Below, one piece after another: positions 32,767-45,700 of a DNA stretch of 64,000 nt. Both the position numbers and the translations under genes were made by a program. The notes beneath the pieces are model-generated. The model made no database searches and had not been told where the DNA came from. It saw only the letters and a program-made list of their open reading frames with translations. Location of the stretch: assembly GCF_000264905.1 (NCBI RefSeq), contig NW_006763131.1, positions 2,622,708 through 2,686,707 of the forward strand. The letters are read 5' to 3'. This stretch comes from Stereum hirsutum FP-91666 SS1 (taxonomy: Eukaryota > Basidiomycota > Agaricomycetes > Russulales > Stereaceae). Numbering within the stretch: the stretch's first letter is position 1; every line of letters starts with the position of its first letter.

Positions 32767-39860
<7,094 letters not shown>

Positions 39861-40414
39861 CTTATAAACGTAACTTCTATAGTCTCTTGTACCTCATTAA
39901 TACCACATCCGTTCTTGTTGTGTTCCGGACCCCTTCGAACTCGTTAAAATTAGTATGTACACAGCTGTGTGGTGTCTCATCAACGTCCCATGCTGCGCCA
40001 CACAATTACTGGATGTGGCACCGCCACCGTGGAATTCCTGTGGCGCTATAGGAAAGAGGACGATCAAAATTCGAGCTGTCTCCAGCTGACTGTTCGTCTA
40101 CCTCGTCTGTCCTTGACACTCTCATCTTCTGAATCAGAGTCAGCCTCGCGCAGTTCTCTTAGTCTAGTTTTCGCGGAATTGCCATCTCTTATTGGGTCTC
40201 TGCGCGAGTCCGAACCTGATTCAGAGTGTCATAGAACAACGTTGCTTGTCTCAGTCGCGAGTGCCGAGAACAGGCAACAATCGTGGTGCGTGTCATAGGG
40301 ATCCCGCATCGATACGGAAAACTGAAGAATACAATAGCTGTGTTTTATTGCTAGCTCTATAAATTTCACGTTCTTTGTGACGCACTGTGCTCTTCCTCCC
40401 CCGTCCGCTTGCCT
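39861..40414. other. Intergenic region upstream of the RNase III-like gene
   Basis: No gene recognised. It contains the element GCTGCGCCACA (39992-40002) shared with the remodeller promoter, followed by atgtggca (40013-40020), the reverse complement of tgccacat at 32221-32228. Confidence 0.45.
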
Positions 40415-41911
40415 ATGTCCTTCCCGATGCAGTTTGCGTCCCAAACGCCCGCTACCAACTCTCTCTCGGTCAAACGTTCAAGACACGATTCAGGCGTAGG
40501 TTCGAGCATGAGCTCTGACGGACCTTCTGCGTACCAGATGCCTACTCTCCCCGAAATCCATGTAAGAAGTTTTCTATTCTCTATTCACTAGAATGAAGCC
40601 AACCGGGTCTCAGGGCGATATGATGTTGGACGTTTTCACGCACAGATCGGTGCGGTTTGCTGGAGCGCCTCCAAACGAGGACTTTGGTGATAGTGAGAGG
40701 CTCGCGTGTGTCGGACAGAAAGTTCTCGCGCTGGCTGCGACATCTGCCTTGTTCAATCAACGACCGATGCTCAATGCGTCGACTTTGGAGGTATGAACTC
40801 TTGCTTGCATTTCACGCTGCCTTCATGTATTTCTGCTCATAATCAATTCAACACTATCTGGAATATATCTTCTCAGACTCAAATCGGTGACACCCTTTCA
40901 GACTCCAAAATCGACGACTGGGTCACTGCGTACAAGATGCGAGACAAGATGCGCTGTTCGCCTGATGCTCGCGACTCGCTCACGGAACCTAAAGTTGTGA
41001 CGGTTCCTTCTTCATCTGCTTACCCTAACTGATAAAACTCCGTAGGAGACGCTCCTTCTCTTTCATAGTTATGTCGGCGCTGTGTATTTGCAACGTGGCC
41101 TCCCGGTAGTGCTAAATTGGATCGGCAAGCTGGTAGACGACAATTTCGAGGACGTCGCACCGGAGCCACCCACACAGCCGGGACAACAATCTCGAAACAT
41201 TAGACTGCTGAACAACATGAAGCGCATGAAAATTGAGCCTTCTCCCTCTCCGAAGCTTAATCATATCGAGCCCCCCTTCTCAACACCCCCTCCGCCGCCG
41301 CCACAGGCGCCTCCGCCGATTCCAATGGCACCGCCGATGTCGAACGGACCCTACGTTCAGGCCGCCCCAACTTATTTCCAGCCCAACCCAATCACTCCAG
41401 CGCAACCCACGGCCGCCTTCCTCCCTGCATTCAATCAGCTTGCCGCCCAGAGAAAGCACTCGATAGAGTGGCAAGCTCAATCGACAGGACCATCGCACGC
41501 GCCTGCGTGGACTGTCAACTGTTTAGGTGAGTGATTTGGACAGTATTATAGCGCCCAGAGCAGAGTCAGATTGGACGGGGAAGCGAAGCGCCGTTGCTTC
41601 ACATGTTTATTTCTTTGTGTGTACATGCGGTTAATGAGCTCGAAATTGTCTGTTGGTGAAGGTAGTATACAAGCAACGGCGCTTCCCTTCCCCGTCCAAT
41701 TTGGCTCTGCTCTGGGTGTGTCTCCCCATCCCTAATGAATGAATTGTAGTCGACGGGTTTCCGAAAGGGTACGGCACTGGAAAGAGTAAGCAGTTGGCGA
41801 AGGAAGCCGCCGCGAGACAGGCCTTTTACAATCTGGGTTGGGCTGGCCGTAAGTGCATTCATGTCTTTTTTTTCTATTGTACTTTACTGACTCTAGTAAA
41901 CAGGATCCTAA
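40415..41911 (+). CDS. Degenerate RNase III-domain protein with C-terminal dsRBD
   Basis: Six exons (40415-40561, 40614-40790, 40877-40993, 41046-41526, 41750-41848, 41904-41911) give 342 residues; the last exon is 8 nt. Residues about 50-190 have an RNase III fold: LDVFTHRSVRF, SERLACVGQKVLALAATSALF, then SYVGAVYLQRGLP. The expected GD(S/A)VL aspartate is replaced (GQKVL), and the D..E of the second acidic motif before GA.YL reads L..H, so cleavage activity is doubtful. A proline-rich linker leads to a dsRNA-binding domain at about 284-340 (KHSIEWQAQ, TVNCLVDGFPKGYGTGKSKQLAKEAAA) with the basic helix intact. Intron 4, which splits the dsRBD, is 223 nt and contains a long hairpin. A cytosolic or nuclear dsRNA-binding role is inferred. 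A catalytically active Dicer is excluded by size and motifs; a mitochondrial L44-like role remains possible. Confidence 0.78.
41554..41716 (+). repeat. Foldback 1: 46-bp-stem hairpin within intron 4
   Basis: Arms 41554-41599 and 41671-41716 are reverse complements at 43 of 46 positions, with a 71-nt spacer. In the + strand RNA two of the three differences become G-U pairs and one is a C-C mismatch, so 45 of 46 positions can pair. It occupies most of the 223-nt intron of the RNase III-like gene. No clear target-site duplication was seen. Confidence 0.92.
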
Positions 41912-41915
41912 CATT

Positions 41916-42284
41916 CACGTCGTTGGTGCTCCAACCACCCTCGGTGCCCCGCGCGCCCTTCCCCGCTCCGGACCTCGACGGGATGTCTGTAGTCTTCTGC
42001 ATTATTGCTTGCATGTACTACTGTCTTTGTAGGCTATGTTGTTTTTATATCGACCATCGCATTGGGGCTTCGTACCATAAAACGTTGAACTCAATGCGAT
42101 GGCCTACACAGAAACAACATAGCCTATGTGCAGCACAAGAGGTATCACGACAATGTGTGGCTCTTGTGCCACATGCGCTGGACCAGTAAGCATTCTTACA
42201 AATTTCTGCATCTGTTTTGGGCCAGCTCCCGAGCGGGGAAGGATGCGCGGGGCACCGAGGGTGGTTGGAGTATGCTTCGACGTG
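41916..42284 (+). repeat. Foldback 2: long nested inverted repeat
   Basis: The main arms 41929-41968 and 42231-42270 match at 38 of 40 positions; one difference becomes a G-U pair. The outer ends carry a further 7-bp arm (cacgtcg at 41916 and its complement ending at 42284). An inner hairpin pairs 42031-42064 with 42092-42125, with an internal loop of about 8 nt. Within the middle, a 9-bp repeat (gcacaagag/ctcttgtgc) forms another small stem. It begins five bases after the stop codon of the RNase III-like gene. Confidence 0.88.
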
Positions 42285-42326
42285 TCACATACATGTCTAT
42301 ATCGTGGCACTAGATCCGGTCTTCTC

Positions 42327-42409
42327 CTCCCGAGGAATTCGTCGAGGACACAGCCCGCCTCCATATTCTGTATGGAGGCGTGCTGTGTCCTTGACGAGCC
42401 CCTTGGGAG
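42327..42409 (+). repeat. Foldback 3: 39-bp stem with 5-nt loop
   Basis: Arms 42327-42365 and 42371-42409 are separated by only ttctg. Of 39 positions, 33 are exact complements and three more become G-U pairs in the + strand RNA. The shape is that of a precursor small-RNA hairpin or a very compact palindrome. Confidence 0.9.
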
Positions 42410-42733
42410 TGGACAGCTCGGTTTTGCTGCTGTGGTAGTATTTTGCTGTCTGTTTATCTGAGTATTGTCCTCGAATTTTCTCTTCGTCGCATGAAAAATG
42501 TTGAAACCCTATTTCTCTTCTACTTCGATCCATACATTCCGTGTTCGTGTACCTTTTGTGTTGCCGTTATCTCCCCATTGTCGTTCGTCGCTCTTCGGTT
42601 GTAGGCAGATAACGCTGAACCCCTAATCGTTTGTTTCGTTCTGCTATTTCAATGATACATGCCATATTTGTTTCAACTCTTTCAGCCTGTTCGTGCCCCA
42701 CTCAATACATACATACTATCTGGAAGCTGACTC

Positions 42734-45700
42734 TCAAATGGACGTGATATCTTTTAACCCCTCCCAGATTATGAATCTCGCCACACTCCCCGCCCCGTTC
42801 CCAATGTGCTGGACAGGTGCGACGAACGACATCGGCGCCATGACCGTCGTACCGTCGACGCCTATCTCATACTCGCCCACGAACTCTCCATCCACATATG
42901 CAAACGTCTGATTCTCCGTCCCCGCGATCACGATCTCGCGCCACGCAGACGCATCAGTCACGGGCAAGGTGTAGTTCAACAGCGGCCATGTGAAGTTGCT
43001 CGATGTGAACGCGAGTGTAGTCCCGTTACCGTACACGGTATACCCGAACGAAGTGTCGGGACCAGAGAGCAGGGTTCCCGTCGTGTCTGAAGTGCTCGCG
43101 TTTACGAGGAAGGTGTAGTTGTGGCCCTTCGACCCAAGAGGCGTGACGATGACGCCGTCGACGAATTCGCCATCGTACCCATTACCGCTGAGATCCTTGA
43201 CCACCCCGCTCGTCTGATTACCAAGTTCGTACGAAAGAACGACGTCGCTTGCGCTGGGCACCCGTCTGTCCAGATTCTGACCGGGCGCGGAGGCTTCGAG
43301 GATAGGGAATGAGGCGAGATATTGTTCTTCGGTGAGATGGTTGTCGCGCGTGGAGGATTGCCAGGAGTTGGCGGCGATGACGGGAAGTCCCATTTTGAAG
43401 GCATAGAAAGCTTCGAGGACCGTGCTCGCGTTGGGGCCATGATCGTTCCATACGGCCTGATTGGTCACGGGAACTATTAAGATGGTGAGTCGAGCATACG
43501 TGGATTCTGCGTACCATGATTGAACCTTGTAGAAGAGGCTCGGAGACGGTAGGATTGTTTGACGCGTTGCCTGTGCCGAATCTTAACCGTCAGCAGACAT
43601 ACACTACTTGCTTGAGATAGAAGACAGCACCTCTGTCAAAGATATGAGGGTCCCATATTCCTTCAGTATCGACATTAGCGCCTTGCCAGAGTCGAGTTTG
43701 ATTGAGTCGTTGGGGATAAGACTGAATAGCAACAAAATTTCAACGTCACTGTCGAGTTCCGAGGACGTTGACCAGTGCTTACGCCAGACTGGATGAAGAG
43801 GACGAGGTTAGGGGTCGTTGTTAGATTAAGTGCAAACAGATGACGCTCACGTATTTCATCACGATGTACTGGAACGCATCATCGCTAGAATAACGCAGAC
43901 TTGTCAGAGAGAAGGTTGAGAAGCATAGCCATCTTGACATATACCTATTGATCACGTTGTAGCCATCTCGGATCAGCTCGTAAGGATCATCTTCGAAGAA
44001 CTCCCTGCAAGCCTAGGAGTCAGAACGTGAGTGAAGTTTAAATCATCACTGCCTTACCAATGTTGGATAGTGATGTTCTTCTCTACACTTGTAGTGTTCG
44101 ACGGCTCGTTCGTCCCCCAAATCCGTATCGTCTTGTTCGCTTCAGCGATGAAGTCACTCTACAATGGCATACAAATGTAGCTCTGTGAAACAATTTATTC
44201 AGATCATAAAACAAGGAGACAGACGCACCATCTCGTTGACGAAATTGTTGTAATCGTCCGCTAAATCCGAGTCATACTCGTCTGCGCCGATAGAAACTTG
44301 CTCTAAACGACATGACATGAGTCAGAGTGTTTGACGGGCACAGAACGGCTACATACTCGACATGAACCACGGAAGAAACTCTGTTTGGAGTGACAAGAAC
44401 TTAGTCAAAGGTGTCAGTAACTGTAGGTATTCTGCAATGTCTCACCTGTCCAGATGGACTTGATGGTAGGAATGGCGTCCGGGACGGTCAGGTTGATTAG
44501 CGTCATATCCGTGGAAAGCGCAAGTTCGGGTTTCCATTGTGTGATAACCAGGGCATGGCCGGGCTACGACACAGCACGCTTCAGATTATTACCAAATTAC
44601 ATGCCCGAAAAAAAAGCCTACTGATTCGATCTCGGGTATGATCTATTCAAGGTGGGACAGTCTTATGAGGTTGTGCCCTCAAAATATCCAAGGGATTGCA
44701 AGCTTGAGTACTCACCGTAACTCCACGAGCGGCACAGTGTTCTTGGAAGCCTATGAACTCGTCGTAGGTGTACGTCTCGTTTAAATGGGGCGTCAAACCG
44801 GCCAAGTCTGGGTTAGAAGGCCGCAGGCGGAAACGAGCATAGGTAGTTTTGGTGACGTCGATGCCATAATTGTCGGACAGATGAACGTGCTGAAAGAACA
44901 CAATCAGACTAAGCTTGAGTACTTGGATGATCATAATTGCTATGATTTTGAACGGCTACGCACAAATTCAGTGGTCTTCCACCATGACGCGTACGTGCAT
45001 AATTCCTCCAAGAACGTGATAGGGTAGAACTGACGACCGACATCTATGGGATTTCGGCCAGTCAATACCTCTGGCAAGACGACTTCATGTGAACAGAAGA
45101 AAGAATCACCTAGCATGTATCCTCTAGTTTGCCAGTCAGGTTGGTCCACGACCATACCACTCGGAAGTTCCTTGTTGTTCAGTAGTAAAGCCTGCAGCAT
45201 CGTCCTAGTGGCCCAGAACGCGCCTGTTCGAGCACTTGAGCATCTAATTCACACTCAAAATGCATAAATATCGAACTCGATACGGACCTCGTGCGCCAGA
45301 GCCACTAATCACCACACTGGAACTCGTGATCGTGATACTATATCCCTCGCTCGTAGGTGTTCCTTTCGCGAGCGTGAAGTTCGCAGCCTCTGCCTCGGAC
45401 ATGATCGTCACGAAAACATCGGCCTTCGCAGTTGACGTTCCAGTAGAGACCTGAGCGGTGAGACCAGAGAAGACAGATTCCGCGTCACTCGCGAAGGTCT
45501 TCGCGAAGGAGAGGAGAGTAGGCGGGATGAGAGTGAGACCATCATCATCAGCGGTAGAAGCCACGTCCTGGTCCACTACGATACTCAGAGTCGAAGGCAA
45601 CGAGAAGGACCCTTCCCCCGAAGAGATGAAAGAGTGAACCGCAGGAACGACGTTCGGAAACTCTGTCGCTGCGTTGACTGGAAGGATCAAGAAAGGCAGA

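Follow-up and report, generated by a model that had tools for sequence, protein, structure and literature searches.

The message of Escherichia coli rnc carries a double-stranded RNA (dsRNA) element, rncO, at which RNase III cuts the transcript of its own gene. A related arrangement is known from plants where, according to PMC12825306, processing of the Arabidopsis DCL1 pre-mRNA at intron 14, which harbours miR838, gives non-productive fragments and thereby negative feedback. In animals, PMC3814725 has Drosha cleaving stem-loops in the Dgcr8 mRNA, from which autoregulation of the complex is proposed, DGCR8 being a dsRNA-binding protein (PMC3892995). Fungal hpRNA and milRNA loci, as covered in PMC9757828, include hairpins beside or within protein-coding genes.

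The locus considered here lies in a stretch of 64 kb of the Stereum hirsutum genome (contig C1, 2622708-2686707), hereafter the window, and it resembles each of these systems in part. Like E. coli rnc, it would encode a protein of the RNase III fold whose transcript has a dsRNA element, but the family of the host gene, unlike the E. coli enzyme, is without the catalytic residues. Like DCL1, it has a hairpin in an intron of an RNase III-family gene, whereas DCL1 is catalytic and gives a defined miRNA, and the protein here is without the active site and has two extra foldbacks past the stop codon of its gene. As with Dgcr8, the stem-loops belong to the mRNA of a dsRNA-binding component and are a candidate target for an RNase III; those of Dgcr8, however, are at the 5' end of the mRNA, while the strong stems here are intronic or follow the stop codon, and the cutter would be Dicer. 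With the fungal hpRNA and milRNA loci it shares the placing of hairpins at a protein-coding gene, differing from them in that a single gene, whose predicted product binds dsRNA, has three foldbacks. Among the matches listed, the titles and abstract openings of the literature describe neither such hairpins in this protein family nor small RNAs of S. hirsutum, which does not prove their absence from print.

The reading preferred here, to which a probability of about 35% is given, is that dsRNA is supplied by the transcript itself and that the encoded protein, Dicer or both use this dsRNA for feedback. If true, an RNase III pseudoenzyme that binds dsRNA would, in a mushroom-forming fungus, be subject to feedback encoded in its own transcript. 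Such feedback is described for DCL1 in plants and has been proposed for Dgcr8 in animals; here it would operate with a host protein that is not catalytic. A role would then also be indicated for a family of fungal proteins for which no stated function was found.

The host gene and its predicted protein

The features of the locus are collected in the table below. The gene model was made manually from the sequence; all five of its introns are bounded by GT and AG, and the frame is open throughout.

Table. Features of the host gene, its foldbacks and the duplicated segment (positions in the window)
Feature	Position	Strand	Description
Duplicated segment	36213-42854	.	~6.6 kb; start inside Mit1-like remodeler gene
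Weaker foldback	40128-40225	+	26-nt arms, 85%, z -4.8; 190-287 nt upstream of ATG
Host gene	40415-41911	+	Manual model: 6 exons, 342 aa; predicted RNase III-like fold and C-terminal dsRBD
Host-gene exons	40415-40561, 40614-40790, 40877-40993, 41046-41526, 41750-41848, 41904-41911	+	Manual model
Intron 4	41527-41749	+	223 nt; splits dsRBD
H1	41551-41719	+	Hairpin of ~47 bp within intron 4
H2	about 41917-42284	+	Foldback directly 3' of stop codon; full span taken from RNA fold, short outer pairs counted
H2in	42030-42126	+	Hairpin nested inside H2; arms 42030-42064 / 42092-42126, 35 nt, 86%
H3	42327-42409	+	Arms 42327-42365 / 42371-42409, 39 nt, 85%; 5-nt loop

On this model the window protein matches the Pfam family dsrm above its cut-off (E 4e-7), and Ribonucleas_3_3 (1.7e-6) and Ribonuclease_3 (3.4e-4) under their own cut-offs. 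A protein search gave 47 related proteins, 33 of which were aligned, including the product P0001 of the copy on contig C31; the 14 omitted include P0002 as well as the most fragmentary and the most distant sequences. Among the Russulales, the protein occurs in Bondarzewia, Dentipellis, Auriscalpium and Artomyces. A profile built from the 33 relatives matched yeast Rnt1 (5t16) at 1.1e-20. Similarly, the structure model of a relative from Bondarzewia, P0004 (mean pLDDT 82.8, pTM 0.55), matched E. coli RNase III (7r97, 1.2e-8) and Rnt1 (5t16, 2.4e-8) in a Foldseek comparison with the PDB. The original prediction of a dsRNA-binding protein with an RNase III fold is thus upheld by the dsrm match, the Rnt1 profile match and the fold of the modelled relative. 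The domain order of a class I RNase III, in which the dsRBD comes after the RNase III fold, is present, and from family membership the host protein is predicted to bind dsRNA.

The catalytic residues of RNase III, which we take to be the Glu and Asp of the ERLEFLGD and DxFE motifs, were located in the family through a HMMER alignment to yeast Rnt1. Of the 33 aligned relatives, none retains the Glu of ERLE, three retain the Asp of GD, one retains the Asp of DxFE and none retains the Glu of DxFE; in the window protein these four columns are occupied, in this order, by A, Q, L and H. In other words, the acidic residues of a catalytic (class I) RNase III are missing from the family, and the host protein is probably no nuclease but an RNase III pseudoenzyme. 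Self-cleavage of the rnc type is unlikely given this loss. The overall interpretation offered by the original prediction is therefore divided: its RNase III-fold and dsRBD host stands, and the many dispersed copies of the arms that would have counted against it were not among the matches reported (see below), but autoregulation in the manner of a catalytic RNase III is not supported, since the catalytic acids have been lost. Paired RNase III domains were found at two loci of the genome, C17:71318-72445 and C3:2655203-2656276, which from their sequence look like Dicers. No match was obtained among phage records.

Foldbacks in and behind the gene

Three inverted repeats had been predicted within about 860 nt (41554-42409), and their arms are indeed present. 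The arms of H1 (41554-41599 / 41671-41716) are 46 nt long, 93% complementary and separated by a spacer of 71 nt, and the main arms of H2 (41929-41975 / 42224-42270) are of 47 nt and 91%. H2 starts just past the stop codon, TAA at 41909-41911, in agreement with the nested foldback expected there. When the + strand RNA was folded and compared with dinucleotide-preserving shuffles, the stretch 41540-41730, with H1, gave -106.4 kcal/mol (z -11.8, none of 200 shuffles as good), 41900-42420, with H2 and H3 together, gave -290.3 kcal/mol (z -22.3, none of 100), and 42315-42420, with H3, gave -73.5 kcal/mol (z -10.6, none of 200). The foldbacks are real and far beyond chance. They have the fold of a hairpin precursor as at an hpRNA or milRNA locus, and they give stable stems on the + strand of the gene's own transcript, where this transcript is assumed to span H2 and H3. 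The weaker foldback upstream of the gene lies in a promoter or 5' UTR position and has a nearly identical fold in all four copies of the gene.

A scanner for stems of at least 25 and spans of at most 500 returned exactly four stems from the window (H1, H2, H2in and H3), all at the host gene, and none from 10 first-order-Markov random windows. A repeat search across all 64 kb, run with a longer seed that does not pick up H3, returned H1, H2, H2in and a weak inverted pair at 42566/42844 (26 nt, 77%). The expectation that nothing similar occurs elsewhere in the window consequently holds at the thresholds of the scanner and the repeat search, the weak pair and the upstream foldback aside. Beyond the window, the scanner found three stems on C31 (72.9 kb), two of them the H1 and H2 of the duplicate there, and five and four stems in two 30-kb stretches of contig C13, in each of which two are the H1 and H2 of the copies. 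Five samples of 10 kb, which cover very little of the genome, gave two stems, and the genome-wide rate is thus only a rough one. None of the 12 other loci that matched RNase III or dsrm (38.9 kb in total, some loci overlapping or lying in one gene) had such a hairpin; the hairpins are, therefore, a trait of the host gene and not of its gene class, and proteins of this kind are not linked to hairpins in general.

With its short loop and its arm length, H3 resembles a short-hairpin precursor, and the genome has the Dicer-like paired RNase III domains that could serve it, such that the gene might house a small-RNA locus, of hpRNA or milRNA type, with stems cut by Dicer and small RNAs acting elsewhere. 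This is unlikely. Genome searches (E <= 10, best candidates scored) that used H2in and H3 in full, and H1 and H2 by their 5' arms, reported no place beyond the gene and its duplicates, and hence no near-perfect target in trans. Moreover, the four Rfam matches in 40000-43000 all fall far below their gathering scores, and fungal milRNAs are very rarely wholly intronic, according to PMC9757828. Identity with an Rfam family was rejected, all four matches being sub-threshold.

Duplicated copies and the origin of the foldbacks

The genome searched comprises 46.0 Mb in 38 contigs, and it contains three further copies of the segment around the host gene. One lies at C31:65375-71992, its first 2 kb being 96% identical and the remainder 90%, and the others, C13a and C13b, are two separate sites on C13 at which the segment occurs in rearranged pieces. 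In the window the frames of the remodeler extend upstream to ~33 kb, beyond the start of the segment, and the sequence past the left junction of the segment is, by eye, common to C31 and C13a; on these grounds we regard the window copy as the parent and the other three as descending from a single duplication. This upstream neighbour (33187-39700) resembles a chromatin remodeler of the Mit1/CHD type, with zf-PHD-like, SNF2 and helicase C matches above cut-offs and chromo and MIT1-chromo matches below them. Its 3' part is inside the duplicated segment, so that C31 and C13 contain fragments of it.

The gene copy on C31 is open except for an altered start codon, and its differences from the window copy are spread nearly evenly over the codon positions (14, 18 and 19, per 340 each), while the C13a and C13b copies have stops in frame. 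H1 and the outer part of H2 are present in all four copies, and both are older than the 6.6-kb duplication. H2in and H3 occur in the window and C31 only: the C13 copies have no stretch homologous to H3, and H2in is missing from both, its site lying between TGT repeats. The lack of H2in in C13 is read as a deletion, since C31 contains it and has the same left junction as C13a. The copies are mosaic across 36213-42320, in that C31 and C13a are nearly fully alike against the window at ~39.3-40.6 kb and also differ from each other outside this tract, which suggests gene conversion.

Rearrangements of other kinds are seen in the C13 copies. In C13a, ~1.4 kb of the segment is inverted and exon 5 has an insert resembling a solo LTR (C13:1576752-1577332; L011 3253-3833). 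C13b carries a MITE-like insert of ~265 nt with 28-nt inverted repeats beginning TACTGT (C13:1675573-1675837; L010 3574-3838).

Chance insertion of miniature transposons was the alternative set out with the original prediction, together with a genome search with the arms as a check. The probes were the 5' arm of H1, the 5' arm of H2, the whole of H2in and the whole of H3, run against the whole genome at E <= 10, in a search that scores the best candidates only and skips very common words. They matched 6, 5, 4 and 2 stretches, respectively, all of them in the host gene or its segmental duplicates, and no match was reported elsewhere in the genome among the candidates scored. By the same procedure a control hairpin, L027, was matched by 45 stretches (22 candidate places) and another, L030, by 37 stretches (20 places), and the third, a hairpin on C31, proved to be single copy; many copies were thus recovered for two of the three controls. 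L027 (815-1020) is a hairpin element of ~200 nt with many genomic copies and is probably a MITE family, and the single-copy hairpin (C31:37140-37313; L016 7140-7313) has arms of 34 nt at 97%. Elements such as L027 and L030 show that MITEs are available in this genome, and the insert in C13b that one could have entered a copy of this very gene. Nevertheless, the dispersed copies of the arms that such an origin calls for were not among the matches reported, no target-site duplication is seen by eye in the flanks of H1 or H3, and H2, with its nested and irregular build, does not resemble a simple element. Nor is there an empty site for H1 among the copies. On the single-hairpin searches and the three control hairpins, the insertion of MITEs by chance is disfavoured and is regarded as very unlikely.

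Preservation of the stems and the proposed feedback

H1, H2 and H3 are all most stable in the window copy. The folds of H1 on its own are -105.9 in the window, -83.6 in C31, -76.7 in C13b and -74.0 in C13a; those of H2 are -190.9 in the window and -165.3 in C31, with shorter forms of -128.0 in C13b and -119.2 in C13a; and those of H3 are -68.0 in the window and -45.3 in C31. Commensurate with these values, a manual count of pairs broken in one copy and intact in the other gave 4 for the window (three in H2in, one in H3) and 20 for C31 (five in H1, four in H2, five in H2in and six in H3; binomial p 0.0015). This comparison of window and C31 was made on ungapped arm pairs, with gaps counted as breaks, and excludes the pair 41599/41671, at which the window differs from a state common to C31 and C13.

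Whether the better preservation reflects selection on the stems is a separate matter. On the window branch, 4 of 212 sites in the H1 and H2 stems have changed, as against 20 of 311 other non-coding sites of the tract (p=0.018), and the C31 and C13 branches have no such contrast (p 0.86 and 0.72). Intron 5, however, holds 13 of these 20 non-coding changes, and without it the comparison becomes 4/212 against 7/256 (p=0.76). Since the contrast vanishes in this way, purifying selection specific to the stems is not established. Against all other introns the contrast is stronger (p=0.0006), but this mixes tracts of different history. Indeed, the window lineage is slow across much of the tract, the loop of H1 included (0 of 66 sites changed). 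The H1 stretches of C31 and C13a, at z -6.0 and -5.3, still beat all 200 shuffles, although they have different ends and their energies are not comparable between the two copies; the survival of a stem, therefore, needs no function. Overall, the window copy is better preserved, and the case for selection on its stems is suggestive at best. Covariation was set aside as evidence, four copies with a single two-sided compensatory change (41565/41705 in C31) being too few, and the mispairs in the window arms, 7 G-U against 6 A-C with no clear excess, were uninformative as a signal of selection.

These rates bear directly on the main rival of the feedback reading, which is that the foldbacks are neutral local inverted duplications, one-off events without a role that decay in every copy, H1 and H2 having arisen before the segmental duplication. 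Such an origin is a real possibility, at well under even odds yet nearly as probable as feedback. It accords with the free breakage of stem pairs in the C31 and C13 copies, with the failure of the stem-specific rate test once intron 5 is removed, and with the occurrence of another single-copy hairpin on C31. It accords, too, with the size of intron 4, which without H1 is 54 nt, like its neighbours (the other four introns of the gene are of 52, 86, 52 and 55 nt), such that H1 seems to have been added to a normal intron. Less easily explained by neutral origin are the strong clustering of four stems in only 860 nt at a single gene and the retention of better stems by the window copy than by the duplicates. 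Should the stems prove neutral, the locus would still offer a natural test of how a gene fares with three long dsRNA foldbacks in an organism that has Dicers.

In support of feedback, the stems are beyond chance, they are clustered in one gene, their arms gave matches in that gene and its duplicates only, among the candidates scored, and the best stems are those of the window copy. The anatomy fits feedback through self-provided dsRNA: a putative dsRNA-binding protein, an intronic stem that splits the dsRBD, further stems past the stop codon and two Dicer-like loci. Under the preferred reading, the primary transcript would bear three long foldbacks specific to the gene, one in the intron that divides the dsRBD and two right past the stop, and through these stems it would become a dsRNA target in cis, with negative feedback as the outcome. 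When abundant, the protein, or the protein with Dicer, would bind H1, whereupon splicing of intron 4 would be blocked and the protein made would lack the latter half of its dsRBD. In an alternative branch, the protein would pass the transcript to Dicer, by which H1, H2 and H3 would be cut. Transcription through H2 and H3, binding, cutting by Dicer and the feedback itself are what we infer here. A bolder and decidedly improbable version has the pseudo-RNase III sensing the dsRNA load through its own transcript, with H1 as a splicing switch and the post-stop stems coupling the message to Dicer, such that RNAi capacity would be set by feedback.

The reading frames around the foldbacks were also followed. 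A frame that stays open across intron 5 and on into H2, as far as 42189, was not accepted as coding because the C31 copy has a one-base deletion in it. Retention of intron 4 brings a stop after two residues, with the frame ending at 41534, and the annotated C13 protein P0002 terminates by this same read-in to intron 4.
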